NCBI RefSeq assembly: GCF_036699995.1
Contig: NZ_CP144906.1
Location: 3,483,001-3,547,000 of the forward strand
Direction of reading: 5' to 3'
Length of the DNA: 64,000 nt
Origin: Clostridium beijerinckii
GTDB lineage: Bacteria; Bacillota; Clostridia; Clostridiales; Clostridiaceae
The notes under the pieces are model-generated. The model saw only the letters and a list, made by a program, of their open reading frames with translations. It did not search any database and was not told the origin of the DNA. This document shows positions 7,328-31,104 of the stretch, piece by piece. The translations under genes and the position numbers were made by a program. The stretch's first letter is position 1; every line of letters begins with the position of its first letter.

Positions 7328-8164
7328 TTAGACAAGTTGTTCTTCCATTACTAATGTATCTTTATGTTGTTCATTAATAAACTCTATTTCAAAATCATCA
7401 GTATCTGCTTTTTCTAACTGAGCAGAAAAAGAAATATTTCTATGCGTTTCTGAATTATCAAATTTAATAACATAAGACGAATTCATAGAATCTACTTCAA
7501 TAATTCTACCTGTACCAAATGATTTATGAATTATTCTATCAATTCTCATATGCTTTAAAGTTTTAGTATCATCCCTTTTTCCTATAATGTAATACTTGCC
7601 CAAATCACAGGCAAAGCTATATGGAATCATTGTATACTTTTTAATTTTGTCATCATAATCTTTATATGTAAAAGAGATTTTCTTTTCTTTTGCAATGGCA
7701 CTCCTTATTTTTTTAACATTCTCTTCTATAATTCTATCTTTACCATTGTCTGTTTTATCGAAAACCAACATAGCCTTTAACTTTTTAGCTTCTTTAGGTG
7801 GAAGTGCCTTTAAAAGACTATTCCTAATAATAGACATTTTAGTTTCCATAAAGGCATTGGACTGAATTAAAGCTGAAATTATAAGTACTACATCATCTGC
7901 ACTTATCAAATCATCTGTTCTTATTCTATTATCGTTTTTAAGATCTTCAAAATCTCCACCATCTTTAATTATGTATCTTTTACCATCATTCTCTATATCC
8001 ACATTAAAATAACGTTTTAGTTCAGATACATAATTCTTTATTGTATCTAATGATACATTGAATTCATCGGCTAATTCTCTTTTTGTTACCGACTTACCTT
8101 CATTGATTAAGCGATAAGTATCAAATACACGTCTTACTTTTTTTGCGCTCTCATCCTTTGGCAT
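7328..8164 (-). CDS. WYL-domain transcriptional regulator
   Basis: A 278-residue regulator. The open frame reaches 8209, but ATG 8162-8164 follows GGGGGAGGGACTGCT, so the protein starts MPKDESAKK. Residues 10-55 form a DeoR-like winged helix-turn-helix (SVTKRELADEFNVSLDTIKN). The second half is a WYL domain (ISFTYKDYDDKIKKYTMIPY, then GKYYIIGKRD and MRIDRI), which in characterised relatives binds nucleic acid or nucleotide ligands and controls phage-defence genes. It lies between an MmeI-like enzyme and a NERD helicase on the same strand. An in-frame TAA separates it from a decayed coiled-coil tail. Its targets are unknown; defence-gene control is inferred from context. Confidence 0.8.
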   Translation of the reverse strand: MPKDESAKKVRRVFDTYRLINEGKSVTKRELADEFNVSLDTIKNYVSELKRYFNVDIENDGKRYIIKDGGDFEDLKNDNRIRTDDLISADDVVLIISALIQSNAFMETKMSIIRNSLLKALPPKEAKKLKAMLVFDKTDNGKDRIIEENVKKIRSAIAKEKKISFTYKDYDDKIKKYTMIPYSFACDLGKYYIIGKRDDTKTLKHMRIDRIIHKSFGTGRIIEVDSMNSSYVIKFDNSETHRNISFSAQLEKADTDDFEIEFINEQHKDTLVMEEQLV

Positions 8165-8221
8165 AGCAGTCCCTCCCCCAAAAAATACCTCATGTCCAAA
8201 TTGTACCATCCTAAAACATGT

Positions 8222-8341
8222 TTATCTTACAGCATGCAGCCTATTTGCAGTAACAACCATTCCTTTAGCTTTTCCATCTATCTACATAGATCTATTATCC
8301 ATAAATTCATCAAGCATTGTTTCAACTTTTTGAAAAATCCC
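8222..8341 (-). pseudogene. Remnant resembling a type I restriction HsdR subunit
   Basis: The reverse strand after the stop of the NERD helicase reads KVETMLDEFMDNRSM, a stop, then IDGKAKGMVVTANRLHAVR and another stop. The run KAMVVTSSRLHAVR is characteristic of the helicase part of type I HsdR proteins, so this 40-codon piece is probably all that is left of one. It happens to be in the same frame as the upstream gene. No start codon is available. Confidence 0.45.
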
Positions 8342-10009
8342 CTAAATCAACCTATATTCCATCTCTTTCTTAAATGCCGCTCTCTGCTTTCTATTTAAAG
8401 TTTCACTATCTATTATCATGATTACATGCACTCTTGCTCTTGACATAGCAACGTATAATAATTTCTTAATCTCATCATTATTTAAGAAATCTTCTTTGAT
8501 ATCTGGAATGATTATTATGTCATTTTCAAGACCTTTATACTTTCTTACTGACTCTACCATAACATTGCTATATTCTCTGACTGCTTTTGAATAGCTGACT
8601 TTTTTTCTAGCGTTAGTCATTAGTATTGTAATATTTTCATCCTTAATTTTCTGAAGCCTCAAATCCTTTAATGTGCTTTTTAATTTTTCCATAACATCAG
8701 CTTGAGATTCTCCAACCATTATTTCTGGTTTAAGTCCATTTATTCCATTTAATATAATACTATTTTCATCTACATCTATAACTTTTAAAGAGCTTAAACA
8801 AATTTCATCTGTATTTCTCATGTTTCTTTTTAAATTGTATCTAACACCAATATCTAAAAAACTTATATCAGTTTGCCCAAACTTTTCATAAAGCATTTGT
8901 AATTCATCATAAAATACATATAGGCTGGCATTATCATCTAAAAAATTATATAGAGATTTAAACCATTCTTCTTTAAAATCTTGTCCTTCATCAACTAATA
9001 TGGTATCAAACAATATATGTTTCTTTTCTTTATTCTCACTGCAAACTTCAAGATAGTGACTCATCATTTCATCATAGTCACCATTTTCTTGAAACTCATC
9101 ATAATACTTTGGATGATATTCTTTTAAATATTCTTCTGCAAATATATGAATTCCATATACTTCAAATTCCCCTTGAGCCTCTTCTCTTACTTTATTAAAT
9201 AACATATTATTATAACAAACATATAAAGCCTTCTTTTTAGCCTTGCTGTCCTTTAATGCCTTCTTTATAGCTAAAACAGTTTTTCCAGTACCTGCATGCC
9301 CTTTTATTGATATAAATCTATTGTCTTCTAATTGTTCAAAACACAAGGATTGCTCATTGTTTAAAGTTATATATCTTGAATTTAGCTTTTCACATTTTCT
9401 TGATAATGGTATACTCCCTTTAATATCAGGTACCAGCACTTTCCTTATTTTATTATAATCAGATAGCATTATAGGATTAATATCAAAATGCTCTTTATCA
9501 GCTCTATACTTAAAAATATTAATCAAGCTCTCTTCTATATTTTTAAAAGAATTCATATCTAATACAACTTCTTTAGGCATACTCATAGGTAATCTGAGCT
9601 TTTTTAGCTCAATATCTGGAAACCATACTGCTGTTGTAATATATGCATTTAGTTTCTCTCTTTTTAGCCTTGAAATAAGCTGATATTTGGTCGTATTTGC
9701 CTGCTTTTCTGGATCTTTAATAGTATTTTTTATATTATTTTTATCAATGCTTGTCCATTCACCATTTTCAAAATTTATTATTCCGCCTTTAACTTCTAGG
9801 GCTAATATTCCATAATTATGATTTAAAATGATAAAATCACATTCCCCGTTAGATTTATTTATACATAATTTGTCCTCTGTTACCCATCTTAATGAATATA
9901 TAACAATCCAATCATCATTCAATTCATTTTTTAAAATATCAAATACTTCCTTTTCACTTTGACTTAAGTAATCTCCTTCGTTTAATTCAAAAGGAATCAT
10001 AATTGCCAT
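8342..10009 (-). CDS. NERD-domain nuclease/superfamily I helicase
   Basis: A 555-residue protein. The N-terminus is a NERD (nuclease-related) domain: GECDFIIL with D58, then LEVKGG with E72 and K74, the acidic pair and lysine typical of PD-(D/E)XK folds. A UvrD/Rep-like helicase follows: Walker A GHAGTGKT at 237-244, Walker B DEGQDF at 340-345, an arginine-rich motif near NMRNTDEICLS, and the C-terminal VAMSRARVHVIM motif. Such proteins are thought to degrade or unwind foreign DNA and are frequent in defence islands. Start ATG follows GGAGGTGAATACTT. It is 177 bases upstream of the WYL regulator on the same strand, probably cotranscribed. Its substrate is not known. Confidence 0.8.
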   Translation of the reverse strand: MAIMIPFELNEGDYLSQSEKEVFDILKNELNDDWIVIYSLRWVTEDKLCINKSNGECDFIILNHNYGILALEVKGGIINFENGEWTSIDKNNIKNTIKDPEKQANTTKYQLISRLKREKLNAYITTAVWFPDIELKKLRLPMSMPKEVVLDMNSFKNIEESLINIFKYRADKEHFDINPIMLSDYNKIRKVLVPDIKGSIPLSRKCEKLNSRYITLNNEQSLCFEQLEDNRFISIKGHAGTGKTVLAIKKALKDSKAKKKALYVCYNNMLFNKVREEAQGEFEVYGIHIFAEEYLKEYHPKYYDEFQENGDYDEMMSHYLEVCSENKEKKHILFDTILVDEGQDFKEEWFKSLYNFLDDNASLYVFYDELQMLYEKFGQTDISFLDIGVRYNLKRNMRNTDEICLSSLKVIDVDENSIILNGINGLKPEIMVGESQADVMEKLKSTLKDLRLQKIKDENITILMTNARKKVSYSKAVREYSNVMVESVRKYKGLENDIIIIPDIKEDFLNNDEIKKLLYVAMSRARVHVIMIIDSETLNRKQRAAFKKEMEYRLI

Positions 10010-10086
10010 AAGTATTCACCTCCATGGTATATATTATAACTTATGATTACTAATTGCATCAAAACAACTTTATTGAATTTTAAAAA

Positions 10087-10119
10087 AGAATGATTCGTTA
10101 ATAAATAACAAACCATTCT
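10087..10119 (-). terminator. Hairpin terminator after the small Cys protein
   Basis: AGAATGATTCGTTA pairs with TAACAAACCATTCT (two mismatches) and is followed on the reverse strand by TTTTTTAAAATT. It would end transcription of the reverse genes 10250-11616. Confidence 0.55.
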
Positions 10120-10151
10120 AAATATATATCTTGATATTTCAAATATTATAA

Positions 10152-10248
10152 GTATATATGTTGCAATAATAAAATTATATTGGGAATGATTCTAGGTTAA
10201 GTAACTATCCAAACGTAAAATGTATAAGGCTAATTACAACATATATGT
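10152..10248. repeat. MITE-like element, copy 1
   Basis: About 97 bp with inverted ends TATATATGTTGCAAT and ATTACAACATATAT. The ends match three other short elements in the window (11734, 37190, 49902). The interior differs from theirs, so this is the most divergent member. It ends at the stop codon of the small gene at 10250. Confidence 0.45.
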
Positions 10249-10249
10249 T

Positions 10250-10408
10250 CTAGAATTCAATTATTTTAAAACACTTCTTACATAAATGTATCTTCTTGCC
10301 AGCAAATGTTATTTTTGATTTTACTGCTGCACCTTCATGGCAGATTTCGCATTTTTTTAACAAACCCTTATCATTCTTTAACTCATTGAGAGTTTTTATT
10401 TTGATCAT
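10250..10408 (-). CDS. Small protein with two CxxC pairs, 52 residues
   Basis: ATG at 10406-10408 follows AAAGGAACAG at a good distance, and the frame ends at TAG 10250-10252. The product (MIKIKTLNELKND...) has CEIC at residues 20-23 and CKKC at 43-46, a compact zinc-ribbon arrangement. It starts 14 bases after the stop of the cell-wall-binding gene and is probably on the same transcript. Small zinc-ribbon proteins often bind nucleic acid or partner proteins; here the role is unknown. Confidence 0.6.
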   Translation of the reverse strand: MIKIKTLNELKNDKGLLKKCEICHEGAAVKSKITFAGKKIHLCKKCFKIIEF

Positions 10409-10422
10409 AAAACTGTTCCTTT

Positions 10423-11616
10423 CTAGCTGATTCTTATATTAGCAGTTTCCATATAATCAACAGCTGTTTCTATTTTATAACCGTTCCTATCAAATTCTGA
10501 TGGATGAAATGCTTTATATAATGTCCCTTGCTCCATACCTTGCATAATGCTAAAATTATATTTTTTTCCATGGTAATAATACTCGTAACTTCCATCATGA
10601 GTTGGTTGTCCATGACTTGAAAAATCTTTTAACGCTACATCTTCAAGCGATTTCTCTTCTATCCATTCATCTGAATTTAATTGGCTTGGATGATGCCCTT
10701 GTAAAAATTGCTTGTAGCTTCCATCTTCAAAAATCAGTATTTCACCTGAATTGTTTACTCTATTTCCATTAAATAAATAGCTGGTAATATCGTAACCTAC
10801 TTTGCCATCCTTGTGTATTTTCTCATATGCCCCATCAATCCCACTTGTTGGACCTGGCGGCGTAAGTGTCGCCGCTGCTCCTTTGTATTCAGAAATTATT
10901 TTTAGTGCATCTTCTATTGTAAATTCTTTTTTAACTTCATTTGATTCAGTTGTTTGATTGTTATTAGAGTTGTGCTTTTCAGAACTGTCATTTGAGTTTG
11001 TACTTCTGTCAGTATTGCTGCTATTAGAAGTATTACCCTGTTGTGTATTGCTACTACTTGTTTGAGCATTATTTGTTTGATTGTTAACAGTGGTGTCATT
11101 TTCTTGTTCATTGTCAACATTCAGTGTATTATTGTTCGGTATTGTATTTGACGTTGTGCTTCCTTTGTTATTACTATTGTTAGTGACACTTGTTTGATTA
11201 GTATTATTAGTATTAGTTTGAGTGCTGCTAGCATATCCTAACCATTTTCCTGCTGCATCAAATTTAGATATTTTTCCATCTGTCACTACAGCACTTGTTG
11301 CCATTGTCCCATTAGGTTTAAGATAATACCAAGAGCCTCCATCTTGAATCCATCCAGTCTGCATTACTCCACTAGGTGAGAAATAATACCACCCTCCACT
11401 ATTTAGCCATCCAGTTTTCATATAGCCATTACTGTCAAAGTAATACCATGTACCACCAATAGTTCTCCATCCTTTTGAATAACTGTTTCCTTCAGTATTC
11501 CCCCAGCCTCTGCTGTCTTGTCTCCACACTGCAGATGCCCCAGTTGCAGATAATGCAAAAATACTTTTTGCTGCTACTAACATAGCTATAACTTTTTTTA
11601 AACTTTGTTTTTTCAT
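10423..11616 (-). CDS. Secreted protein with cell-wall-binding repeats, Ser/Asn/Thr linker and unknown C-terminal domain
   Basis: The true start is ATG 11614-11616 after GGAGGTAAAAAGA, giving 397 residues. A signal peptide (MKKQSLKKVIAMLVAAKS, cleavage near GASA-VW) is followed by four or five aromatic repeats of the choline-binding type (TWYYFDSNGYMKTGW, GWYYFSPSGVMQTGW, SWYYLKPNG). A 110-residue low-complexity Asn/Ser/Thr/Gln linker leads to a roughly 150-residue C-terminal domain starting EFTIEDALKIISEY. It should be exported and bound to the envelope. Its promoter shares a 30-base motif with the promoter of the dynamin-like operon, which suggests joint control. The C-terminal domain is not recognised. 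Confidence 0.8.
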   Translation of the reverse strand: MKKQSLKKVIAMLVAAKSIFALSATGASAVWRQDSRGWGNTEGNSYSKGWRTIGGTWYYFDSNGYMKTGWLNSGGWYYFSPSGVMQTGWIQDGGSWYYLKPNGTMATSAVVTDGKISKFDAAGKWLGYASSTQTNTNNTNQTSVTNNSNNKGSTTSNTIPNNNTLNVDNEQENDTTVNNQTNNAQTSSSNTQQGNTSNSSNTDRSTNSNDSSEKHNSNNNQTTESNEVKKEFTIEDALKIISEYKGAAATLTPPGPTSGIDGAYEKIHKDGKVGYDITSYLFNGNRVNNSGEILIFEDGSYKQFLQGHHPSQLNSDEWIEEKSLEDVALKDFSSHGQPTHDGSYEYYYHGKKYNFSIMQGMEQGTLYKAFHPSEFDRNGYKIETAVDYMETANIRIS

Positions 11617-11687
11617 TCTTTTTACCTCCGTTAATATTCTGCATTTCAAATTTCCTTCTATATGAAGTGACTTGATAAGTTTATATT

Positions 11688-11881: not shown

Positions 11882-12367
11882 TTATATATTCATTATATTT
11901 CTAAATTCGTCACTGCTTACATATCTCTCTAAGATTTTAATTTCTAAGCTGTCTAAAGATTTATTTTTGCATTGTATTTTGAATTCTTCAATTATAGTGT
12001 TTTCTTCCTTAATATGATACTCTTTAACTTTCTCCAAACTGTTAAAAATATCTTTCAATTTATTTACTGATTCTCCAACAATAAGTTTGTTTGTTTTTAA
12101 ATCACATAATATCTCATTAATATCCTTACCATCTCTATTGTTAACCCTTTTAGTTATATTCTCCGAAATACTTTTCTTAAGTAGAAGCATTTGTTTTTCC
12201 TCTGCTTTTTTTCTTAAATTTATTGCATATACAATAGTATTCTTGTGGTTTTTAATTTTCTTATCTAATGATTTTCTACATTCTTCTATATCCAAAGCTT
12301 CTATTACTTCAACATCTCGCTCACTATAAACACAGTATTTTTTAAGTATATCTTCAAATTCTAACAT
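11882..12367 (-). CDS. Small coiled-coil protein, last gene of the dynamin-like operon
   Basis: Start ATG at 12365-12367 follows AGGTGATTATA (a GTG three codons earlier overlaps that site and is less likely). The 161-residue product is soluble, rich in Lys/Glu/Ile and probably all helix. No membrane segment, Cys pair or nucleotide-binding motif is seen. It begins 15 bases after the repeat-protein gene and is the sixth member of the run that starts at 21415. Its role is unknown; a helical adaptor for the GTPases would fit, but this is inference. Confidence 0.65.
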   Translation of the reverse strand: MLEFEDILKKYCVYSERDVEVIEALDIEECRKSLDKKIKNHKNTIVYAINLRKKAEEKQMLLLKKSISENITKRVNNRDGKDINEILCDLKTNKLIVGESVNKLKDIFNSLEKVKEYHIKEENTIIEEFKIQCKNKSLDSLEIKILERYVSSDEFRNIMNI

Positions 12368-12382
12368 TATAATCACCTACTT

Positions 12383-13615
12383 TTAGCCTTCAATCATTAC
12401 ATTTAAAACTTTATATGTATCCTTTAATAAATTTAAATAACGTTCATTTGATTTAGATATTTCAATTAACTTTATAACCGTTTCATTTGTTAATTCTTTA
12501 TAAGTATTTGTTATTCCCTTATATTCCTCTACATTTCCTTCAGTTATTTCTATCAAATCGTCTAACCCTGATCCTAGTTCACTCTTTAATTTGTTTATCG
12601 CTTCCTTATTATCATCTAATTTTCTTGATAGCGCTTCATTCGTATCTTCTAGTTCAGCCTTTATATCCTCTATGATTGATTTATCCTTAATTTTTATTAA
12701 TATATCTTCTAATAACCTTTTATCTTTTACTTGCTCTAAGATATTTTCTATTATTGTTCTATCTTTCATCTCTGATAGCATGTTTTCCAGTATTGCTCTA
12801 TCCTTTACTTCTGTCAGAATATTTTCTGCCACCGTTCTATCTTTTACTTCTGCTAAGATGTTTTCTGCTACTGTCCTATCTTTCATTTCTTCTAGAATGT
12901 TTTCCAGTACTGCTCTATCCTTTACTTCTGTCAGAATATTTTCCACCACAGTTTTATCTCTTACTTCTGCTAAGATGTTTTCTGCTACTGTCCTATCTCT
13001 CATCTCTGTTAGAATGTTTTCCAGTACCACTCTATCCTTTACTTCTGTCAGAATATTTTCTGCCACCGTTCTATCTTTTACTTCTGCTAAGATGTTTTCT
13101 GCTACTGTCCTATCTTTCATTTCTTCTAGAATGTTTTCCAGTACTGCTCTATCTTTTATTTCTGTCAGAATATTTTCCACCACAGTTTTATCTCTTACTT
13201 CTGCTAAGATGTTTTCTGCTACTGTCATATCTTTCATTTCTTCTAGAATGTTTTCCAGTACTGCTCTATCCTTTACTTCTGTCAGAATATTTTCCACCAC
13301 AGTTCTATCTGTTACTTCTGCTAAGATGTTTTCTGCTACTGTCCTATCTCTCATCTCTGCTAGAATGTTTTCCAGTACTGCTCTATCCTTTACTTCTTTT
13401 AACAAATCTTCTTTAAACCTTTCAAGTTTTTCTTCTTTATAAATTCTTTCTTTGTTTAAATTTTCTTCATAAATTTTGAATGCCATAAAAGCACCAATAA
13501 TAATCACTATATTTATACCTGCTAATATTGATTTATTTCCTATATCATATGTCATCTCAACAGCTGCCGTAGATATCAGCCCTGTCACTATTGCTTTGAT
13601 TACTATATTTAACAT
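12383..13615 (-). CDS. Membrane-anchored protein with nineteen 13-residue repeats
   Basis: A 410-residue protein starting after GGAGGAATA; its ATG overlaps the stop of the preceding gene by one base (TAATG). Two hydrophobic stretches (residues 3-19 and 31-47) anchor the N-terminus. Residues 74-320 are 19 tandem 13-mers of the form E-V/M-K-D-R-T/A-V-x-E-N-I-L-A/T/E, grouped as triplets of 39 residues; each has the spacing of an amphipathic helix, so a long rod or coiled coil is likely. The last 90 residues are non-repetitive coiled coil. I recognise no family. In a three-dynamin operon it could be a membrane-tethered scaffold or spacer. Confidence 0.75.
   Translation of the reverse strand: MLNIVIKAIVTGLISTAAVEMTYDIGNKSILAGINIVIIIGAFMAFKIYEENLNKERIYKEEKLERFKEDLLKEVKDRAVLENILAEMRDRTVAENILAEVTDRTVVENILTEVKDRAVLENILEEMKDMTVAENILAEVRDKTVVENILTEIKDRAVLENILEEMKDRTVAENILAEVKDRTVAENILTEVKDRVVLENILTEMRDRTVAENILAEVRDKTVVENILTEVKDRAVLENILEEMKDRTVAENILAEVKDRTVAENILTEVKDRAILENMLSEMKDRTIIENILEQVKDKRLLEDILIKIKDKSIIEDIKAELEDTNEALSRKLDDNKEAINKLKSELGSGLDDLIEITEGNVEEYKGITNTYKELTNETVIKLIEISKSNERYLNLLKDTYKVLNVMIEG
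12656..13396 (-). repeat. Coding tandem repeat, 39-bp unit, 117-bp higher-order unit
   Basis: Nineteen 39-bp units inside the 410-residue protein. Unit types cycle in threes (KDRAVLEN, KDRTVAEN, RDKTVVEN), so neighbouring 117-bp blocks are closer to each other than neighbouring 39-bp units. Near-identity at DNA level points to recent expansion by recombination or slippage, and copy number probably differs among strains. Confidence 0.85.
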
Positions 13616-14607
13616 TATTCCTCCAACGCACTACTACTTAATGCTTTACTCAATTTTTTTATTTCATCTGATAAAAAGCCATCTATTTTTAATATTCCAC
13701 TATCCATTAATGCTATATATCTCTTACTTTTTATTTTAATATCTACAATTTTTATAAGTCTTGCCTGAAAATTGTTCATTAAATAATCATCTAAACTCTT
13801 TTTCACACTATCAATTGATGATAACAGCTTATTTACAATCAAATAATTGTCTGTAAAATTATTCGGCTGTAAATAATCTATAACCATTTTTTTAGCTATT
13901 TTTTCATATTCTAATTTTGCCATCAGATCTATTCTGTGTAAAAGCTCATTTATTTTATCTTCCTGTAGTTCATTAGAACTTAAAATATTTATAAAATCCA
14001 TGGCAATGGCTATCCTAAAACTATCTTCAATTAAATTAGTTTCTAATATCTGCTTATCCTTTTGAATTAACTTACTTTCAATAAAGATTCTTTCATTATA
14101 ATAACTATTAAATTTTATCAGTATATCTTTCATTTCTTTAAGGTCATTTACTTTTCTGACCTTATGAAGTTTATTATCAATAATACGATTTTCAATACCG
14201 CTTAGACCCTTCTCTCTAAATATTATAATTAGTGAATTGTCCACACTGTATTTCTTATTTAATCTCTTAATAATTCTAATAGTATTATTTTTAATCCTAT
14301 AAGGGTGAATGCACTTTATAGAAAGTGCATCACTGCTATAATTTACTTCATAAGAATCTATACTTTCTTTTTCTATATATACTAATTCATAATCTTCTAA
14401 ATCCTCTAAAGGCTCTTCTACATAAAACAACTTCTTTAATATAGGATAATATTCATCAGCTACAATAGTTATAAATTTAGTTCCATCAACATCAATTTTT
14501 TCATTTTCTGCTGAGACGGCTACTTCACTCAAACCATCATTAAGATATGTCTTATATATATTTTCAAAGTTTTTCTTTTGATATAATAAATTTCTTAAAA
14601 TCTCCAT
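13615..14607 (-). CDS. Unknown protein of the dynamin-like operon, 330 residues
   Basis: The gene overlaps its neighbours by one base on each side (TAATG at both ends), so translation is coupled to the third dynamin-like GTPase before it and the repeat protein after it. The product is soluble, mixed alpha/beta in its first 150 residues (FITIVADEYYPILKKLF; DNSLIIIFREKGLSG) and helical afterwards. No P-loop, metal site or membrane segment is visible. It is not recognised; its strict coupling says it works in stoichiometry with the GTPases. Confidence 0.65.
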   Translation of the reverse strand: MEILRNLLYQKKNFENIYKTYLNDGLSEVAVSAENEKIDVDGTKFITIVADEYYPILKKLFYVEEPLEDLEDYELVYIEKESIDSYEVNYSSDALSIKCIHPYRIKNNTIRIIKRLNKKYSVDNSLIIIFREKGLSGIENRIIDNKLHKVRKVNDLKEMKDILIKFNSYYNERIFIESKLIQKDKQILETNLIEDSFRIAIAMDFINILSSNELQEDKINELLHRIDLMAKLEYEKIAKKMVIDYLQPNNFTDNYLIVNKLLSSIDSVKKSLDDYLMNNFQARLIKIVDIKIKSKRYIALMDSGILKIDGFLSDEIKKLSKALSSSALEE

Positions 14608-16937
14608 TACACTATCAACTCATCAATCCATTGTTTGTAATTCTTAAGCTCCTCCACCAAAGCAGTCTTAGCTTCGAGTTTATTAGTTATTTCCTGTCTT
14701 TCACCAGTACTTTGATCGATTGATTCTTTCATAACCTGTAATCTTTTGTTAAACTCATTTCCACTTTTAATCAATATTTGTTGTGTCGTAAATTTAAAAA
14801 TATCCTTTACCTTAATAATTGTATTCTCTGCCTCTTCAGTAAAAATTCTACCTGCTTCATTCTTATAATGTTCTTCTAATGCCTTGCTTTTATTTTCATA
14901 ATACTCTTTTTCTTTTCTCACTAATAATAATTTTTCACGTTCTTCACTTATTGCTATTTCTTTTTCTATTTCTCTCTTTCTTCTTGCTGCTTCAGTTATT
15001 GAGATATTTCCATTCTCTATTTCAACTTCTAATCTAGCTTGTCTACCTTTAACTTCTCTCTTGGATTCTTCCAATCTTTCCATTTCATCTATCCATATTT
15101 GTTTTTTAGTTTCATTTTCTACATACGCAACTTTTGATGGCTTTATACTTTTCCCTAAAGCTCCTCCAACTTTTTCACCGATTCCACCAATAGAAATGGA
15201 ATCTAGTATTTCTAGCAGCTTTCCACCTTTTTTTCCTTTGGCAGATTCAATTACTTTTCCTGCTTTCTTCATTCCTTCTTGAGCAACTTTTATGCTCTTC
15301 GTTGCATACTGCGCCAATTTCACAGAATCCTTAGCCATATCTGCAGCCTTTAATGCTGCTGGCGCTGCTGCTGCTGGAGTAAAAAATATTAATGCTATAT
15401 CAGCTATCTCTCCAATTGTCCTACCAATAATTCTACCTGTTTCTTCTCCGCCATCTTCTGCTATCTCATCATACTCTGGAATATAACCACCCTTAGTTAA
15501 AATCTGTTCCTTAATTTGGTTATACTCTTCATCATTCTTACTAATATTATCTTTTATCATAGCAATCTTATCTGATGTAGCAGCCACCTCATCTTTTATA
15601 GCTTCTATTTCAATACCAGCTCTTAATCTATCTTCCCTTAATTGTCTTAAATCATCATCACAAGTTAAATCTAATTCTTCAATGGTTGGTAAATGAAGCT
15701 TAGCCTCTAATTTAAGATCCAATTCAGTATTTATACCTTCTAGTTGAACATTATTCTCTAAATAAATGTAATTTATTAACTCATTAATTGTCTTATCTAA
15801 ATAGGCTTTGACTTTATTATTTATTTTTTCAGATGCTTTATTAAAAGTTAATGATAATAATTCTTCATCAATTTCTTCACTAGAAACTAGTACCTCTACT
15901 ATTTCTGCTTCTTCTTCCTGATATATATTTTTAATGTTATTTTCAATCTTAACTTTATTTTCTTCTACAATCTTATTAAAGTTTTTAGTTATATCCTCTT
16001 CGTCCATATTCATTGTGTTTATCTTGTTATTTAATTTTTCAATTTTGGCACTTAATTTCTCGCCATCAACCTCAGATAAGCTTCTTATTAAATCTAGTTC
16101 TTCTAAAAGTTCCTCTAATCTTTTTTCAAATATTACACCTAATTGTCTCTTTGCATTTTCCTTTATCTTCTTCTCATTATTGCATTTTACTGCAAAATTA
16201 ATATTCTCTCTTATAGCATCAATTAATGCACTATCTTCATATGCAGCCTTTGAGCCAATTGGTTGTGCACTGGCTTTAATATTAAGTTTATTTTCTAAAT
16301 CTGCTTCAGCTTCCAAAACAAACTTATTTATATAATCAGTTTCTTTATTTATATACTTTCCATCTATTTCATCATCAATGTGAGTCAATATAAAGAATAT
16401 GTCACTTGTGTACTTTTGGATTTCCTGTATTTTTTGAATATCATAATCAGTTAATGCTTTATTGAATACATATAAAACTAAATCTGATTTTCTAATTACT
16501 TCCTTTGTTATTAGTTCATGTTCTTCATAAGTTGTATTTGTTCCTGGAGTATCTATTAAATGATAATTATCTAATAGATATTCACTTTCTACTGGAATAG
16601 TTATACTTAGTATACTTTTATCATAGTCTTCAACATTCTTAGCATACTTTTCAACATTTTCATTTGTTGCGTCTATATGCTTAACTTTTCCATCATTGTA
16701 CTTAACTTCTATGTATTTTGTATTAGATTTTATCAAGTCTATAAAAACTGGTGTACACTCTAAATTAGAGCTAGGTAAAAAGTTATTCTTATTTATCAAT
16801 GCATTAATAAAAGTACTCTTTCCTGAACTAAATTCACCTGTAACTGCTATAATTTTATCGCCATTATTAATTTTATTAATGTACTCTCTTATTAGTTCTT
16901 CACTTATTCCATATTTAGAAAAATCATTAATTTCCAT
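14607..16937 (-). CDS. Dynamin-like GTPase 3, with a hydrophobic mid-segment
   Basis: 776 residues. GTPase signatures: G1 GEFSSGKS at 34-41, G2 Thr in CTPV near 62, G3 DTPG at 129-132, G4 THID at 185-188. Long coiled-coil stretches follow. Around residues 500-535 a glycine/alanine-rich hydrophobic segment (IADIALIFFTPAAAAPAALK) stands where dynamins carry their membrane-inserting paddle. Bacterial dynamin-like proteins bind and remodel or fuse membranes on GTP hydrolysis, and some protect against phage-induced membrane damage. It starts one base after the stop of the second GTPase and overlaps the 330-residue gene. It differs clearly from its two neighbours in sequence, so the three are probably hetero-partners. 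Confidence 0.85.
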   Translation of the reverse strand: MEINDFSKYGISEELIREYINKINNGDKIIAVTGEFSSGKSTFINALINKNNFLPSSNLECTPVFIDLIKSNTKYIEVKYNDGKVKHIDATNENVEKYAKNVEDYDKSILSITIPVESEYLLDNYHLIDTPGTNTTYEEHELITKEVIRKSDLVLYVFNKALTDYDIQKIQEIQKYTSDIFFILTHIDDEIDGKYINKETDYINKFVLEAEADLENKLNIKASAQPIGSKAAYEDSALIDAIRENINFAVKCNNEKKIKENAKRQLGVIFEKRLEELLEELDLIRSLSEVDGEKLSAKIEKLNNKINTMNMDEEDITKNFNKIVEENKVKIENNIKNIYQEEEAEIVEVLVSSEEIDEELLSLTFNKASEKINNKVKAYLDKTINELINYIYLENNVQLEGINTELDLKLEAKLHLPTIEELDLTCDDDLRQLREDRLRAGIEIEAIKDEVAATSDKIAMIKDNISKNDEEYNQIKEQILTKGGYIPEYDEIAEDGGEETGRIIGRTIGEIADIALIFFTPAAAAPAALKAADMAKDSVKLAQYATKSIKVAQEGMKKAGKVIESAKGKKGGKLLEILDSISIGGIGEKVGGALGKSIKPSKVAYVENETKKQIWIDEMERLEESKREVKGRQARLEVEIENGNISITEAARRKREIEKEIAISEEREKLLLVRKEKEYYENKSKALEEHYKNEAGRIFTEEAENTIIKVKDIFKFTTQQILIKSGNEFNKRLQVMKESIDQSTGERQEITNKLEAKTALVEELKNYKQWIDELIV

Positions 16938-16938
16938 A

Positions 16939-19173
16939 CTAAACTACACTCTCCCTTATTGTTCTCACATTATCTATTGATTCATTTAATGCAACAATTT
17001 CTTCTGATATCTCTTTAATTTTCATATCTAATTCTTCTGGTGATACTTTGCCTGCAAATATTAAATTTTCAATAGCTTCATTTTTAGTCTCTATTTTTCT
17101 TTCTAATGATATTAAAGCCATCTCAATTATTTTATATATAGTGCCACTATTCATATCTAATGAAGTTTTAGTTTCTTCAGCTAAATCTGAAATATATCCC
17201 TTAATAGATTTTTTATACTTTCTTAAATTAACACTTACTAACTCCTGCTCTCTATTAAATCGCTCTTTTTGCAGGTCAATTTCTCCATTATAGAAATTTT
17301 CCATTTCTTTTCTAAAATTAATTTCTGCTTCACTTTGCAGAATATCCAAAATCTTGCTTCCCTTTACATCTCTTTCTTTTTCTCTTAATAGTGATTCTTT
17401 TTTCTTAATCTTTTCCTCATATTCTTCATTGATATCTAGTTTTTGTTTTCTTTTTAAATTAATTTCACTCTCATCATATTCTTCATATTCTCTTTCAACT
17501 GGCTTTTTCCCAAAAAAGAAATCAATACCCTTTCCAAATAAACCATCCCTTGAAACTCTTTCTGTTCTTAATCTCTTATCTCTATATACTTGTCCCTCTC
17601 CAACTTGAAGTATTCTATCTCTTTTTTCATTTTCTAATCTTTCCAAAGCTCTTCTCTGTCTCTCAACTTCTTGTCTTAATTCATCGTTTTCGCTGCTTTC
17701 TCTAGCGAGCCTTTCCCATTTAAGCCTCTTTTCACTTAGTTCTTCTTTTTTCTTTGCTATCTTCTCTTCAATATCATCAAAATAGCTCTTGTCAATTTCA
17801 TTTATTGATACAACACTTTTCCCATCAATATTAAGTTTTACTTCGATTGCGTTAACAAGTTTGCCCTTAATCATATCAAAGTCTTTTTGATCATCTATAT
17901 ATAAATCAATTATCTCTTCAAACTTTCTGATCAATTTTTTTTGAGTTCCATCAACAGTATTTTTAATTTTACTTGTAATATTTTCTGTCATATTGCTAAA
18001 ATCTGTGATTCTTAATGCAAATGATGATTTTACATCCTTTAAATCTTCATCTACTCCTTGTTCCAATTTTCCTGCCTCTGATTCTATGAAATTTCTAGAA
18101 TTATTTATTTCTGACTTTACAAGCTTCCTTATAGACTTTTTTCTTTCCTTAAGATCATTTTCTAACTCTTCTAGTTCACTCTTTGCTCTTGCAATATCCT
18201 GTTCTAGCTTGTCATTCTCTGTATTGTAAATCCCAAATTGTTCTTTTTTTAATTCCCTGCACTCATTTAATTTTGATAATATGCTTTTTATTGGTGCTTC
18301 TAGTCTGTCCCTAATATTATCATCACTTGTTAAATAATCTGCCAGCTTTTTCTTAAACTCCAGCACCCTTGCTGTTTCTCTCTTATGAGAGTCTTTTTCA
18401 GCAATTCCTTGCTTTTCAAGTCTAGCTGATATAGGATGTACAAACTTATCTTTAACATCTGCTCCAGCAATATTTATCTTGCGTTTTAAGTCAATTATAG
18501 TATCTTCTATTGTACTTTCAGTTTTGTCCTCCATATCAATTTTGTTTAACACAAGAAAAATTCTATCCATCTTGTCATTAACATCTCTCAAAAAGTTAAA
18601 CTCCTTTTGTGACCCTGGTTTATCATAAGAAAATAAGAATATAGACGCATCTGAATTTGCTACATGAGATTTTGCTGTTTTTGTATGAATATAGTGTGTT
18701 GAGTTAAATCCTGGAGTGTCCACTATCTCAACTCCATCTTTTAATATCTCAGAATCTAAATATAGAACAACTTCGGCAATCTTATCCTCAACATCCTTAA
18801 TCTCATTGTTTCTAGCTGAATATTTTTTTATTTCGTTAATTTCGACAACCTCAACTCTACCATCCTTAAATATTATTTCAGCCTTATTTTTTAAAGCTTC
18901 AGTATGAGCATATTTAAGTCTAGTTATAGTTGCTGTACTTGCAAGCTCATCCTCAACAAGAATTTCTTCTGAAAATCCCATTAATGCATTTAAAAATGTA
19001 CTTTTTCCATTACTAAAATGCCCAAAAATAGATATTACAAATCTATGATTTTCTAAGTTTTTAATTTTTTCATCTAAAAAATTTACTGTAGCTTCATCTT
19101 TAATGTTTTCTCTAATAAGTTTTACTGCTTCAACAACCTTATCTTTTTTCTCTTTGTACTCTTTTAGTTCCAT
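16939..19173 (-). CDS. Dynamin-like GTPase 2
   Basis: 744 residues. G1 GHFSNGKS at 51-58, G2 in ASTATIT near 78-84, G3 DTPG at 152-155, G4 NKID at 210-213, all canonical. The rest is almost entirely coiled coil, with a basic glycine/phenylalanine patch (DGLFGKGIDFFFGKKP) that could touch membrane. Start ATG follows GGAGGGCTAAG, which overlaps the stop of the first GTPase with one base between stop and start. Paired dynamin-like genes are known (DynA/B, LeoA-type loci, Cj0411/0412), but three in one operon is unusual. Function is inferred as membrane remodelling under stress. Confidence 0.85.
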   Translation of the reverse strand: MELKEYKEKKDKVVEAVKLIRENIKDEATVNFLDEKIKNLENHRFVISIFGHFSNGKSTFLNALMGFSEEILVEDELASTATITRLKYAHTEALKNKAEIIFKDGRVEVVEINEIKKYSARNNEIKDVEDKIAEVVLYLDSEILKDGVEIVDTPGFNSTHYIHTKTAKSHVANSDASIFLFSYDKPGSQKEFNFLRDVNDKMDRIFLVLNKIDMEDKTESTIEDTIIDLKRKINIAGADVKDKFVHPISARLEKQGIAEKDSHKRETARVLEFKKKLADYLTSDDNIRDRLEAPIKSILSKLNECRELKKEQFGIYNTENDKLEQDIARAKSELEELENDLKERKKSIRKLVKSEINNSRNFIESEAGKLEQGVDEDLKDVKSSFALRITDFSNMTENITSKIKNTVDGTQKKLIRKFEEIIDLYIDDQKDFDMIKGKLVNAIEVKLNIDGKSVVSINEIDKSYFDDIEEKIAKKKEELSEKRLKWERLARESSENDELRQEVERQRRALERLENEKRDRILQVGEGQVYRDKRLRTERVSRDGLFGKGIDFFFGKKPVEREYEEYDESEINLKRKQKLDINEEYEEKIKKKESLLREKERDVKGSKILDILQSEAEINFRKEMENFYNGEIDLQKERFNREQELVSVNLRKYKKSIKGYISDLAEETKTSLDMNSGTIYKIIEMALISLERKIETKNEAIENLIFAGKVSPEELDMKIKEISEEIVALNESIDNVRTIRESVV

Positions 19174-19174
19174 C

Positions 19175-21415
19175 TTAGCCCTCCGCGTTAATTAATTTTT
19201 CCATATCATTTAGCTTATCTAAATTTTTATCTTTATCTATCTTTAACTCATTTATCCCCTCTACAACCTGGTTGTATTTTTCATCGAGAGTCTTCTCAAA
19301 TGCATTAATATAGTAATTTGCCTGCTCAGTAACTTCATTCTTAATATAGTCATAATACTCACCTAATATTTCATTAAACTTACTTAGCATAATCCCAAAA
19401 TATTTACCTAATAATTTACTAAAATATATGTAAAGATCTTCTTTCTTGTTTTCAACAAAAACCTGTTTACTATTACTTATACGTTTTTCCATATTCTCAG
19501 CTGCTTGTTTCCTGCTAGCTTTTAAGCTATCTATGCCAATCTGCAATTTACTAATTTTTTTATTAATATTCTCTGCTTTTGTCTTATCCTCAAGTAAGCT
19601 ATCAATCTTATCTTGGTATTCTTTCTCTCTTTGTCTATAGTAATCAATTATATTGTTACGTTTCTTCTCCCAGGCTATTCTTTTACTGTGATCTAACCCA
19701 TCAGGAACTTTAACATCATATTCTTCAGTAAAAAGCAGCCATTTCCGTCTAGTCCTAGTCTCTGTCCTATATTTCTGAACTGGGTCAGGCCTCTTACCTA
19801 ATCTTGATATTTCATTTTCCATATCAACTTTGTCAACTCTTATTTTTGCTTCTATGTTTTGAATTTCTTTGCCATAATTAAGGTTATACTTACTTAATAA
19901 TTGCTTATTATTTCTTAATTGTTGTTCTAAATCCTTAATACTTTTTTCTAAGTCCATTAAAGTGCTATCGTTATTATTATTCGTATACTCCAAATTCACT
20001 TTAACTTCATCGTTCTTTGTGGTGAAATTTATTTCTCCACTTTTGTTAAATATCTTCTTAAATTCTTTATTAAAGGTATAGCTTAATAGTGAATTTATAT
20101 TTTCCTTATATTTATTAACATTTATGCTATAAGGTTCTATACAGTTATTAATAATATTCTGAACATACTTTTCTAATTTCTTTTCAATTCCATCGTTTAA
20201 GTCTTCATAACACTTAATATTATCGTTTATATATAGAAGTATTTGTTTTTTACCTTTACTAACTTCATCTTTTATATCAGAATCCATGGTCCTTGCAAAC
20301 TCTTCATTGGATTCCATTAGCTGTCTAAGGGTAGAGTTTATTATTGCTCTTCTATTTTCAAGAATTAATTCTTTTTGAAGATTAATCTTATTTAAAACAT
20401 CATCTATATCTTTCAAACCTTCAGCTTTATTTTTCTGCAATTCCTTTTTAAATTCTTCTAATAATATTAAAATTCTTTCTTTTATGTCTTCATAAAATGC
20501 TTTTGATCTATTATCCTTGCTTAAAAATCTATTTAAATATTCTCTAAAGTCATTAAAAGATGACCTTTCTAAATACTCTTCTTGAGTTAATAATTTATTT
20601 ACTTCAGAATCGCTCTCTTTAATTACCTGATTAAATAAATTTACATCTCGTCCCCATAAATAATCTCTGCTATCTAATGCAAATACCTTTATATTGTCTA
20701 TGGAATTTTCTTTTAAAGTAGTCTTAACTGATTCTACAACTCTATTAATTTTTATTAGCGCTTCTTCTTTTGACCTGGAAGAATATAATTCACTAATTTT
20801 ATTTATAACTAATATGATTTCCTTTGTTTTTATTCTTCCAAATTCTTTTAGATTTCCTTGTAGTAAGTTAAGTTCTGTTCCTGTTAACCCTTTATAATCA
20901 ACTAATACAATTGTTGCATGTGCTTCCTTCAATACCTCTTTTGTGATAAGTAACTCTTTTTCTCTTATCCCCTGAAGGCCTGGAGTGTCCATAAGTAAAA
21001 CTTCTTTATCGATTCCAATTATAGGATAACTTATATTTACATTCTTAATATTTTTATTATCATTTCCATTCTTATCCAGGTAAGATTTTAATTCTAAATA
21101 ACTATTTTCTTTACTTAAATTTATAGTTTTTGGCTTGATATCATCATAACTTATTTCAGCCAGCATTTTTTCACTGTTTTTTATTATAGTTAATACTCCA
21201 GTAGCCTCTTGTGCTGATGAATATAGTACTCTTTTCCCAATAATTGAATTTAAAAATGTACTTTTTCCAACAGAAAATTCACCTATTACTGCTATTTTAT
21301 AACTATCATCATTTAATAAATTCTCTATTTCTTCAATATCTTTTTCATAATCGCTATCTATACTTTGAGATATTTCTCTCAAAAGCTCAATTGCTTTATT
21401 ATATAACTTTGTCAT
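19175..21415 (-). CDS. Dynamin-like GTPase 1, first gene of the operon
   Basis: 746 residues. G1 GEFSVGKS at 45-52, G2 Thr in ATGV near 72, G3 DTPG at 143-146. G4 reads NKIS (205-208) instead of NKxD, which may loosen guanine specificity. Long coiled coils flank a basic segment (RTETRTRRKWLLFTEEYDV) near residue 550. Start ATG follows GGAGATAAACATAAG. About 100 bases upstream lies the GGACA-N5-TGTCC motif. Two WYL regulator genes are the next genes upstream on the same strand. It should act with the two following GTPases. Confidence 0.85.
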   Translation of the reverse strand: MTKLYNKAIELLREISQSIDSDYEKDIEEIENLLNDDSYKIAVIGEFSVGKSTFLNSIIGKRVLYSSAQEATGVLTIIKNSEKMLAEISYDDIKPKTINLSKENSYLELKSYLDKNGNDNKNIKNVNISYPIIGIDKEVLLMDTPGLQGIREKELLITKEVLKEAHATIVLVDYKGLTGTELNLLQGNLKEFGRIKTKEIILVINKISELYSSRSKEEALIKINRVVESVKTTLKENSIDNIKVFALDSRDYLWGRDVNLFNQVIKESDSEVNKLLTQEEYLERSSFNDFREYLNRFLSKDNRSKAFYEDIKERILILLEEFKKELQKNKAEGLKDIDDVLNKINLQKELILENRRAIINSTLRQLMESNEEFARTMDSDIKDEVSKGKKQILLYINDNIKCYEDLNDGIEKKLEKYVQNIINNCIEPYSINVNKYKENINSLLSYTFNKEFKKIFNKSGEINFTTKNDEVKVNLEYTNNNNDSTLMDLEKSIKDLEQQLRNNKQLLSKYNLNYGKEIQNIEAKIRVDKVDMENEISRLGKRPDPVQKYRTETRTRRKWLLFTEEYDVKVPDGLDHSKRIAWEKKRNNIIDYYRQREKEYQDKIDSLLEDKTKAENINKKISKLQIGIDSLKASRKQAAENMEKRISNSKQVFVENKKEDLYIYFSKLLGKYFGIMLSKFNEILGEYYDYIKNEVTEQANYYINAFEKTLDEKYNQVVEGINELKIDKDKNLDKLNDMEKLINAEG

Positions 21416-21615: not shown

Positions 21616-22604
21616 CTATTGTTTTTTCATCTCATCCCTATATTGCTGTGGTCTTGTAACTTCTAAAAACTCTTTTTGTGAAAGCAGCCACCTTTTTACC
21701 CCTTCTCCATATACCTCTGCTTCTATTATTGCTTTTTTATTTTCATCATCATATCCTATGACTTTGGCCGTTGGCAGTCTATCGAGGACTGCCTCTAAGG
21801 AATCTCCCCAAAACTTAAATTGTATCTTCATCAATTCACCTGTATACATGAATTGAATTCTTTTTCTAAATTCTCCTTCTTCGAATCTATCTCTATCATA
21901 TAAAGGAAATTTGTTTCCATCTTCTACAATCTGATATTCTTCAAATCTATCAACTCTAAATACGATCGAATTATCCCCACTCTTTCCATCAACATAACAA
22001 ATTAAATAAAAATAAAATTCACTAAATATTAATCCAAGAGGCCACAATACATATTCTTTAATTTTTCCATCTTGTCTTCTGTATTTTACTTTTGCTTTTC
22101 TTTTATTTCGAACACAAGTATTAATCTCCCATAAAAAATCAATTAGATCTTTATTATGAGTAGGTGGAATATAATGAAATTCTTCATTTCTAATGGTATC
22201 TCTAAATAATTCTCTGTCTTCACATTGACTATCTAATATATCTAATATTCTTGTTATTTCCTGCTTTGAAAAAGCTCTAGATTCAAGAAGAATTTTAGCT
22301 AGTGCAAATATATCCCTATCTCCGAACTTAAACCCTCCACGTTTGGTGACTTTATATATTGGTTTTGCCTTATTTTTATGACTATCAACTATTATAGTTC
22401 TGCCCATTTTCAGGTCTTTTTCTAAAAAGTATCTTAATTCATCAATATCTCTTTGTATTGTTTTGTAAACAACATTATATTCTTTAGACATATCTTCCTT
22501 GGTCAAAGCTTCACCTTTATGAAGTTTCTCATATATATCTAGTATTCTATGGGTTTTAAAGTCACTGTCTCTTTTCTTATTTTCCTCTTTTTTTCTTCCC
22601 CCAC
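21616..22604 (-). pseudogene. WYL regulator with a frameshift in an A7 run behind its start
   Basis: The WYL domain is intact (KYRRQDGKIKEYVLWPLGLI, then FRVDRFEE), and the protein closely resembles the neighbour at 22720-23712. A plausible start is GTG 22602-22604, nine bases after GGAGGA, but the frame from it breaks at an A7 run (T7 at 22588-22594 on the + strand). With eight A it would read MGEEKKEENKKRDSDF, run through the missing helix-turn-helix (HRILDIYEKLHKGEALTKED) and join the long frame. Without slippage only a shortened protein from TTG 22506 could be made. So: a broken gene, a slippage-controlled gene, or a sequence error. The stop is at 21616. Confidence 0.6.
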
Positions 22605-22719: not shown

Positions 22720-23712
22720 TTACCTATAAAGCATTCTCATTCCTTCAATAGCTTCTTTCATTTCTTCCCTAAAATTATCTGGGCCCAGAACCTCAACAAA
22801 TTTCCCTTGACTCAATAGCCACATCTTTATACCCTTACCAAACATTTTTGCTTCAATTATGTATTTGCCATTATCTTCTTTAATAATCTTAGCATTAGGT
22901 AATCTATCTAATACAGCCTCTATAGAACCACCTTTAAATCTAAACTTTATTCGTTCTAATTCTCCAGACTGCATAAATTGTATTAGTTTTCTAAACTCTC
23001 CATCTTCAAATCTCTTACTGTGATCTACCTTATAGTTTTTATCTGTAGTAATAAGTTCCCTAATCCTATCTACTCTAAAGATAGTAGGATATTCGTCACT
23101 TCTTCCCTCTATAAAACCTATAAGATAAAAATAGTATTCGGAAAACATAAGCCCTTGTGGATATATAATTCTCTTTGACATTTCTTCTTGCATCTTTCCA
23201 TCTATACCAAGCTTGCAGTATCCTATTTCTAATATTTTTTGCTTTTTAATTGCATCGCTTATTTGCCACAGCTTGTCTAGAAGTTCTGTACCATGTCGCG
23301 GTGAAACGTAATTCACTAATTCATTTCCTATAATAAACTTAATATTTTCTTTACCTTCACACACACAATTATCAATCAGATTATTCATCATACCTTTTAT
23401 CTCGTTTTTTACAAAGCCTCTACTTTCTAACAAAACTTTAGAGATTGCTAGTACTTCTTTTTCATTTAGAGTTTTACTATGCTTTCCTTTTAGGATATAT
23501 CCATCTTTCTCTGCTATAACTTCTTCTCCAATTAACTCTCCATTAGAATCTTTAGATTCTTCAGAAACAAAATCTTTAATTTCTTTTATATATCTATAAA
23601 AAGTTCTTTCATTAATTTTAAATTTGTTTAATACATCATCCTTTGTAACTACTTTCCCATCTTTTAATTCATTATAAATAAATAACAACACATATGATTT
23701 AGATTCTTCCAT
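22720..23712 (-). CDS. WYL-domain transcriptional regulator
   Basis: 330 residues. The N-terminus is a winged helix-turn-helix (VVTKDDVLNKFKINERTFYR, residues 20-45); residues about 150-240 form the WYL domain (YPQGLMFSEYYFYLIGFIEG, FRVDRI); a C-terminal dimerisation region follows (SIEAVLDRLPNAK). It is a paralog of the frameshifted gene at 21616-22604 and has a decayed third copy at 26278. WYL regulators (for example BrxR and CapW) repress phage-defence operons and release on a nucleic-acid or nucleotide signal. Position suggests that it controls the dynamin-like operon. The ribosome-binding site (AGGAAAGG) is weakly spaced. Confidence 0.8.
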   Translation of the reverse strand: MEESKSYVLLFIYNELKDGKVVTKDDVLNKFKINERTFYRYIKEIKDFVSEESKDSNGELIGEEVIAEKDGYILKGKHSKTLNEKEVLAISKVLLESRGFVKNEIKGMMNNLIDNCVCEGKENIKFIIGNELVNYVSPRHGTELLDKLWQISDAIKKQKILEIGYCKLGIDGKMQEEMSKRIIYPQGLMFSEYYFYLIGFIEGRSDEYPTIFRVDRIRELITTDKNYKVDHSKRFEDGEFRKLIQFMQSGELERIKFRFKGGSIEAVLDRLPNAKIIKEDNGKYIIEAKMFGKGIKMWLLSQGKFVEVLGPDNFREEMKEAIEGMRMLYR

Positions 23713-31100: not shown

Positions 31101-31104
31101 CTAT

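Follow-up and report, generated by a model that had tools for sequence, protein, structure and literature searches.

Organization of the operon

The window analysed here is a 64,000-nucleotide stretch of the Clostridium beijerinckii genome (contig NZ_CP144906.1, positions 3,483,001 to 3,547,000). It contains six tightly packed minus-strand genes (window positions 11882-21415), named here in their order D1-D2-D3-U-R-S, which form a real, conserved and apparently unnamed multi-dynamin system. The genes are the following.

19175-21415, minus strand: D1, a LeoA-like dynamin-like GTPase of 746 residues
16939-19173, minus strand: D2, a LeoA-like dynamin-like GTPase of 744 residues
14607-16937, minus strand: D3, a dynamin-like GTPase of 776 residues
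13615-14607, minus strand: U, a probable pseudo-dynamin of 330 residues, without G1 and without G3
12383-13615, minus strand: R, 410 residues, with two N-terminal membrane segments, a rod of 19 units of 13 residues and a further C-terminal part
11882-12376, minus strand: S, the last gene, with 164 residues from GTG at 12376 or 161 from ATG at 12367

The intergenic gaps are 1, 1, -1, -1 and 6 nucleotides, the last becoming 15 if S begins at ATG 12367. An earlier note on this DNA had described six packed genes, three GTPases with complete G1 and G3 motifs, and a two-helix membrane protein with 19 repeats. The open reading frames (ORFs) lie where it placed them and with such gaps, the three GTPases carry both motifs and all pass the Dynamin_N cut-off, and in R both the two hydrophobic stretches and the 19 repeats, each of 13 residues, are seen. 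The note was also right about the place and size of its "330-residue unknown"; U is, however, probably a divergent dynamin-like protein rather than an unrelated one. Long plus-strand ORFs over R were taken for repeat artefacts. Promoter-like sites numbered 65 against 73.5 in shuffled sequences; this is no excess, and no conclusion was drawn from it.

Recurrence in other bacteria

A protein search with D3 returned 61 proteins, 30 of which (the query included) cover at least 81% of D3 with E-values below 1e-55. A profile made from the window D3 and 29 relatives was scanned over one genome per species, and at least 79 loci were listed (L numbers below). Loci were counted when genes matching D1, D2 and D3 stood in order; L031, L033, L041, L042 and L049, which are fragments or broken, were left out, and the remaining loci of the scan were taken for other dynamin kinds. 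According to these gene calls, with the plasmid match included, the order D1-D2-D3-U-R-S is found, whole or partial, in at least 16 loci besides the window. The carriers span Bacillota, a Psychromonas (Pseudomonadota) and a Bacteroidales, and one copy is plasmid-borne.

L027, Lysinibacillus capsici plasmid pFN9A: all six genes, long D frames
L030, Clostridium aestuarii: all six genes
L032, Epulopiscium: all six genes
L035, Bacillus FJAT-42315: all six genes
L044, Planococcus: all six genes
L047, Psychromonas, Pseudomonadota: all six genes
L052, Propionispira: all six genes
L057 and L095: all six genes
L040 and L065: all six genes, D3 frame shortened
L034, L036 and L037: partial, cut by a contig end
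L038, Pseudoflavonifractor capillosus: S not found
L086, Bacteroidales: S not found

Together with the window these are 17 loci, 10 of them complete with long D frames, 2 with a short D3, 3 cut by contigs and 2 in which S was not found. Since the same order recurs in unrelated genomes, it goes beyond chance. A variant, D1-D2-U-S, is present in six Oscillospiraceae-named loci (L045, L050, L051, L053, L055 and L098), where D3 and R are gone from the row and an antisense gene of 178-179 residues follows. Because D3 and R are missing together, their joint absence suggests that they work together, although one clade counts as one event.

The operon is sparsely distributed. In 67 other genomes of the window's genus, no full-length D3 match was found (up to 15 candidates scored per genome). 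Among 398 genomes of the phylum, the window's own was the sole one with a full-length D2 match, the other 397 having none (2 candidates per genome). In Selenomonadaceae, 6 of 189 genomes have a full-length D3 match, and all six have U (5 candidates scored per genome). The window copy belongs to a minority sub-type together with those of C. aestuarii (L030) and Epulopiscium (L032). A phage origin was considered and rejected, as scans of IMG/VR gave no relatives: none of 62 pattern matches with the D3 profile and none of 35 with the D2 profile were relatives. Among 50,697 phage records, a single one matched the D2 of L044, and that only in part. The plasmid pFN9A has conjugal transfer genes, yet its PLSDB type is non-mobilizable.

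Three co-inherited dynamins

By sequence, D1, D2 and D3 are members of the dynamin superfamily. Dynamin_N (PF00350) scores 64, 99 and 80 bits in D1, D2 and D3, respectively, against a Pfam cut-off of 27. The G1 motif reads GEFSVGKS in D1, GHFSNGKS in D2 and GEFSSGKS in D3, and G3 is DTPG in all three. The PADLOC LeoA model matches D1 (74 bits) and D2 (67 bits), while D3 has no match in PADLOC. The solved sequences nearest to D2 are BDLP and IniA; the one nearest to the D3 family profile is chain A of 5owv, from a bacterial dynamin pair (E 8e-22). A conserved glycine-rich, partly hydrophobic stretch of D3, at about residues 485-600, may enter the membrane.

The three GTPases are old, co-inherited and distinct subunits. 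In a tree of 81 dynamins, all 22 D1 proteins form one group (support 100/99), and the same local sets return within D1, D2 and D3: the window with L030 and L032, L027 with L044 and L035, and L038 with L057 and L095. The set L040 and L065 is repeated for D1 and D2; the short D3 frames of these two loci were excluded from the tree and from the motif counts. Pairwise distances, which come from related pairs and carry no significance test, correlate with Spearman coefficients of 0.77 (D1-D2), 0.86 (D1-D3) and 0.90 (D2-D3), and of 0.53-0.67 between U and each D. The six genes are co-inherited, with their order kept, whole or partial, in at least 16 other loci, in line with the earlier proposal of one multi-component dynamin system.

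Some observations do not fit this picture so well. D3 separates as one group from D1 and D2 with support of 87/94 only, and 21 rows of other kinds may fall inside it. The window-type D2 trio (window, L030 and L032) lies outside the canonical D2 clade and, because these copies stand apart, D2 needs two changes on the tree. A G4-like motif, searched with a loose pattern, was seen in 17 of 22 D1, 21 of 23 D2 and 15 of 15 D3 proteins.

A probable pseudo-dynamin

The likeliest identity of U, judged mainly from predicted structures, is that of a fourth dynamin which has lost GTP binding. The P-loop is present in none of 27 U proteins. For a canonical U relative in the same operon position, the predicted fold is a G domain plus a helical bundle, closest to bacterial dynamins, and the best structural match in Foldseek is chain C of the Cj-DLP1/Cj-DLP2 pair (PDB 5owv, 5oxf). 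The helical bundle of the window U also has its best structural match in the Cj-DLP pair, in chain A. Three things underlie the assignment of U to the dynamins: the top Foldseek rows, the operon context and the helical bundle that follows the domain.

Several results count against this assignment. Compared with whole dynamins, canonical U reaches only low TM-scores (template modelling scores), between 0.25 and 0.34 when normalised by query length. In the structure comparison of canonical U, Ras-like GTPases reach about the same Z-score as dynamins, so that this search by itself points to a G domain; it hardly covered the helical half. The predicted model of the window U is poor, with a predicted local distance difference test (pLDDT) value of 60, and a Foldseek comparison of this model with structures gave nothing at E 0.001. 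Profile comparisons were not significant, either between window-type and canonical U or between U and D2 or D3. For the window's own U, a dynamin fold is only weakly indicated.

In the databases, the window U has no match above the curated cut-offs of Pfam and NCBIfam and none in PADLOC. A BTHB-domain protein was rejected, as the match of 20 bits is under the cut-off of 25.6. The idea of U as a sequence-detectable GTPase was also dropped after both the profile comparison with D2 and D3 and a sequence search of the PDB failed. Since the sequence searches failed, the sole support for a GTPase-like U is the fold of its canonical relative.

A predicted membrane-anchored rod and a small last protein

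In the window, R has hydrophobic segments at residues 1-19 and 25-43. Further on, residues 74-320 form an unbroken series of 19 units of 13 residues, in which a period of 39 residues is more pronounced still; Tandem Repeats Finder reports 5.8 copies of 117 nucleotides at 91% in the gene. Each of the other 15 R ORFs has one or two predicted membrane segments at its N-terminus, followed by a region of very variable length. These ORFs range from 252 to 1,286 residues, excluding the R of L034, which is cut by a contig end. The earlier note had proposed R as a tether, and as far as build is concerned the idea holds, as the architecture is membrane-tether-like in all 15 other loci with R. A continuous helix rises 0.15 nm per residue. 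If the rod were one such helix, simple arithmetic would give it a length of about 55 nm in the window and about 185 nm in L035. Many R proteins have a C-terminal motif like NxKDxxLhxxhh, where h is hydrophobic (e.g., LNKKDMDILESLMR and MTAKDVELIENLARKLR); it is not clearly seen in the window R. Pfam matches of R to acyl carrier protein phosphodiesterase and others were taken for repeat artefacts.

The counterpart of S in the other complete loci is a small last gene of 62-164 residues. U and S have no PADLOC match, R has only a chance match there, and none of the three is named in Pfam, NCBIfam or PADLOC-DB.

A proposed membrane machine

We propose that the products of the six genes form a single hetero-oligomeric dynamin machine at the cytoplasmic membrane, a reading to which we give a probability of about one half. 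D1, D2 and D3 would be its three distinct active GTPases, and U a fixed, non-cycling partner without a nucleotide site that nucleates or regulates the active dynamins. R would be anchored in the membrane and would hold the assembly there through a long helical rod, longer in some species than in others, with S as a small adaptor. The trigger would be membrane damage or invasion, most likely phage entry or lysis and possibly pore-forming compounds, and WYL regulators may raise expression in some hosts. The GTPases would then assemble, tether and reseal the membrane, and lysis would be delayed or prevented. In this scheme, we infer that the proteins form a complex and tether membrane, how they are regulated, what triggers them and that they protect. 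Membrane protection is the likely task of such a system, and phage is no more than a fair bet as the threat. The complete picture of a four-dynamin membrane-protection system not described before, with three active members and one dead, a rod whose length is free to evolve through its repeats, an anti-phage role and spread between phyla and on a plasmid, is put forward more tentatively.

Genomic neighbourhood

The copy in the window is flanked by a restriction enzyme of type IIG (1,064 bits), a pair of WYL and NERD-helicase genes, and a three-gene McrBC-like set. The genes around the operon are listed below.

21616-22506, minus strand: WYL-domain regulator directly upstream of D1 (WYL 38 bits, cut-off 21.8)
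22720-23712, minus strand: second WYL-domain regulator, WYL plus WCX
3872-6613: MmeI-type IIG restriction-modification enzyme; Pfam recognises each of the five MmeI domains
7328-10009: WYL regulator, then NERD-helicase matching the RTasNERD-Hel model at 174 bits (a reverse-transcriptase-associated type)
10423-11649: cell-wall protein with choline-binding repeats, situated between the NERD-helicase gene and D1-D2-D3-U-R-S
27437-32208: the McrBC-like set, made up of a DUF2357/PDDEXK_7 nuclease, an AAA protein that matches PDC-M26A and a 367-residue unknown

The upstream gene was scanned in 11 three-dynamin loci, and in 4 of them (the window, L030, L044 and L065) a WYL gene immediately precedes the operon. 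Upstream of L038 are a type III methylase, its restriction subunit, a PADLOC match to Orf5/HEC-06 and a HEC-07-like protein, whose gene is 96 nucleotides from D1. PDC-S27 matches near L086 make its defence context suggestive. Many of the scanned flanks are ordinary genes, which speaks against a defence role; the scan covered 88 of 97 listed flank proteins and then 80 of 88. The earlier note spoke of defence-gene neighbours in the window, and these are real; such neighbours are also seen at L038 and perhaps at L086, but not clearly at other loci. With restriction genes and another triple-dynamin cluster near the window copy, and type III restriction-modification genes beside that of L038, a defence role is plausible.

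Since the genes around many copies are ordinary, membrane repair is a rival to be taken seriously. The same machine could serve general membrane maintenance or repair of antibiotic damage, like DynA or IniA, with another trigger. Neighbours such as polyphosphate kinase (L032), xylose-isomerase-like and molybdopterin proteins (L095) and SpoVAD (L040) agree with this, as do the DUF7005 adjoining three two-dynamin variants and the antisense gene after all six variants, which would be expected of a resident locus. However, the occurrence is patchy (full-length D2 in 1 of 398 phylum genomes, D3 in 6 of 189 in Selenomonadaceae), one copy is on a plasmid, a phage-integrase-family gene lies upstream of L034, and defence genes stand beside the window copy and L038. 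Repair as the main task is unlikely on balance, while deserving serious attention.

Other dynamin clusters and a possible lipid-acting partner were also observed. A second triple-dynamin cluster is located 1.4 kb to the left of the window (L022 6495-11564; G000:C1:3476495-3481564), with proteins of 552, 580 and 543 residues, and is followed by a small protein of 129 residues. All three of its dynamins match PADLOC LeoBC and two also match LeoA, and because of these matches the cluster is considered Eleos-like. A third cluster in the same genome (L023 5041-11854; G000:C1:4360041-4366854) encodes dynamin-like proteins of 841, 590 and 601 residues, with a 233-residue coiled-coil-looking protein between them. 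With the operon, one genome thus has nine dynamin-like genes in three unlike triples. Three-dynamin rows of other sequence types are present in L024, L029 (plasmid pFN9B), L039, L072 and L081, among which L029, L081 and L024 are of one common sequence type. Triple-dynamin operons seem to be a class rather than one system. In L040, a patatin-like phospholipase gene (8870-10918) lies directly downstream of the six-gene copy, at 16 nucleotides.

Comparison with known systems

Most bacterial dynamins occur as side-by-side pairs (PMC6104087, PMC4159319). Among the closest known systems is the Cj-DLP1/Cj-DLP2 pair of C. jejuni (PDB 5owv, 5oxf), which forms a 2:2 tetramer that binds membrane and is proposed to tether it (PMC6104087). 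Both systems have adjacent dynamin-like genes in one operon; the Cj-DLP pair is a membrane hetero-oligomer (PMC6104087), as is proposed for the products of the six genes. Assemblies of the Cj-DLP type are marked by a mixed oligomer that triggers GTPase activity and lipid binding. The Cj-DLP operon includes a putative beta-lactamase-like gene in a figure legend, and the excerpts describe two active dynamins only and mention no pseudo-dynamin or anchored rod (PMC6104087). IniA (PDB 6j72) and Nostoc BDLP (2j68) share the G domain plus helical bundle, but IniA with IniC and BDLP1 with BDLP2 are described as tandem pairs (PMC4159319, figure legend), unlike the triple set.

DynA of Bacillus subtilis is also a bacterial dynamin, and it guards the membrane and delays phage lysis (PMC8844932). 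It is a single fused double dynamin (PMC6104087), unlike the separate D1-D3. With the DynA equivalog NF052648, whose cut-off is 1600 bits, D1 scores 40 and D2 scores 73, and D3 has no match. This delaying of lysis speaks against abortive infection, in which the dynamins and the anchored rod would break the host membrane upon phage sensing. GTPases plus a membrane protein would suit such a role. Pfam, PADLOC and NCBIfam gave no match to a pore or toxin domain for any of the six proteins, and abortive infection is considered improbable.

The LeoA likeness raises the question of whether the operon is an unusual member of the Leo genes, which we take to be the defence system called Eleos. Both are multi-gene dynamin operons, and the PADLOC LeoA matches of D1 and D2 given above favour the idea. 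Against the NCBIfam LeoA subfamily, however, D1 and D2 reach 18.1 and 18.9 bits with a cut-off of 325, and D3 has no match. The PADLOC LeoBC model does not match D1-D3 at E 0.1, although the same model matches the neighbouring L022 cluster. LeoABC is a pair in which one partner is split, LeoB and LeoC jointly forming one dynamin (PMC4159319), and U, R and S are absent from it. With U and S unmatched in PADLOC and R matched only by chance, membership of Eleos is quite improbable. The earlier note knew no name for the arrangement, and neither PADLOC-DB 2023 nor NCBIfam names it. No triple-dynamin operon with such partners was found in the titles and abstract openings of the open-access papers listed by literature searches, which is weak evidence of absence.

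U-R-S away from dynamins

The earlier note had held that homologs of U, R and S occurring mostly away from dynamin genes would speak against its reading; this was examined with U. Searches for U used a canonical profile, which does not reach the window's own U. In 17 of 19 carrier genomes there is one U match, the operon copy (most being in the profile by construction), and no second copy; the genomes of L030 and L032, which have the window-type U, gave no matches. Canonical U was detected in none of 398 sampled phylum genomes (5 candidates scored per genome) and, in the family of L038's genome, in 1 of 400, the known carrier. In Selenomonadaceae, the family of L095's genome, 21 of 189 genomes have it. 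Three of the 18 new loci there (L111, L112 and L115) have D1-D2-D3 beside U, then R. The separation is thus not seen in the 19 carriers or the 398 phylum genomes, but it is seen in 15 of the 21 U-bearing Selenomonadaceae genomes, where no D gene adjoins U. A search for Dynamin_N at E 1e-6 in these 15 genomes, whose completeness is not stated, found none in 8 and some in 7. Both results weigh against the proposed machine.

Among the dynamin-less loci, L113, L123 and L126 have U-R-S, L119, L124 and L127 have U-R, and L116 and L118 have no R; the R and S ends are still conserved in several. The U tree, which omits L120 and L128 (partial), L027, L055, L086 and window-type U, places 13 dynamin-less copies in one clade (100/98); six dynamin-linked copies join this clade with support of 98/97. 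Because the dynamin-less copies form a single clade, they are read as one derived split and no refutation. Most simply, the dynamins would have been lost or relocated once, with U-R-S persisting afterwards. That the dynamin trio and U-R-S are two independent modules, merely adjacent, agrees with the 15 dynamin-less loci and their conserved R and S ends but is very improbable, given this single clade joined to dynamin-linked U, the restriction of canonical U to the operon in the genomes searched outside Selenomonadaceae, the co-varying distances, and the joint absence of D3 and R from the variant rows.

Significance

The dynamin-free U-R and U-R-S cassettes offer a natural test of U, R and S acting alone. 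Three apparently active dynamins with a probable pseudo-dynamin and a membrane rod would be a richer set than the pairs described in PMC6104087 and PMC4159319. If the complete picture put forward above is correct, bacteria would have a dynamin assembly that includes its own pseudo-GTPase and, in the rod, a molecular ruler or tether. The set makes testable why several dynamins share an operon, what a GTP-less dynamin does, and whether rod length determines how far apart membranes are held.

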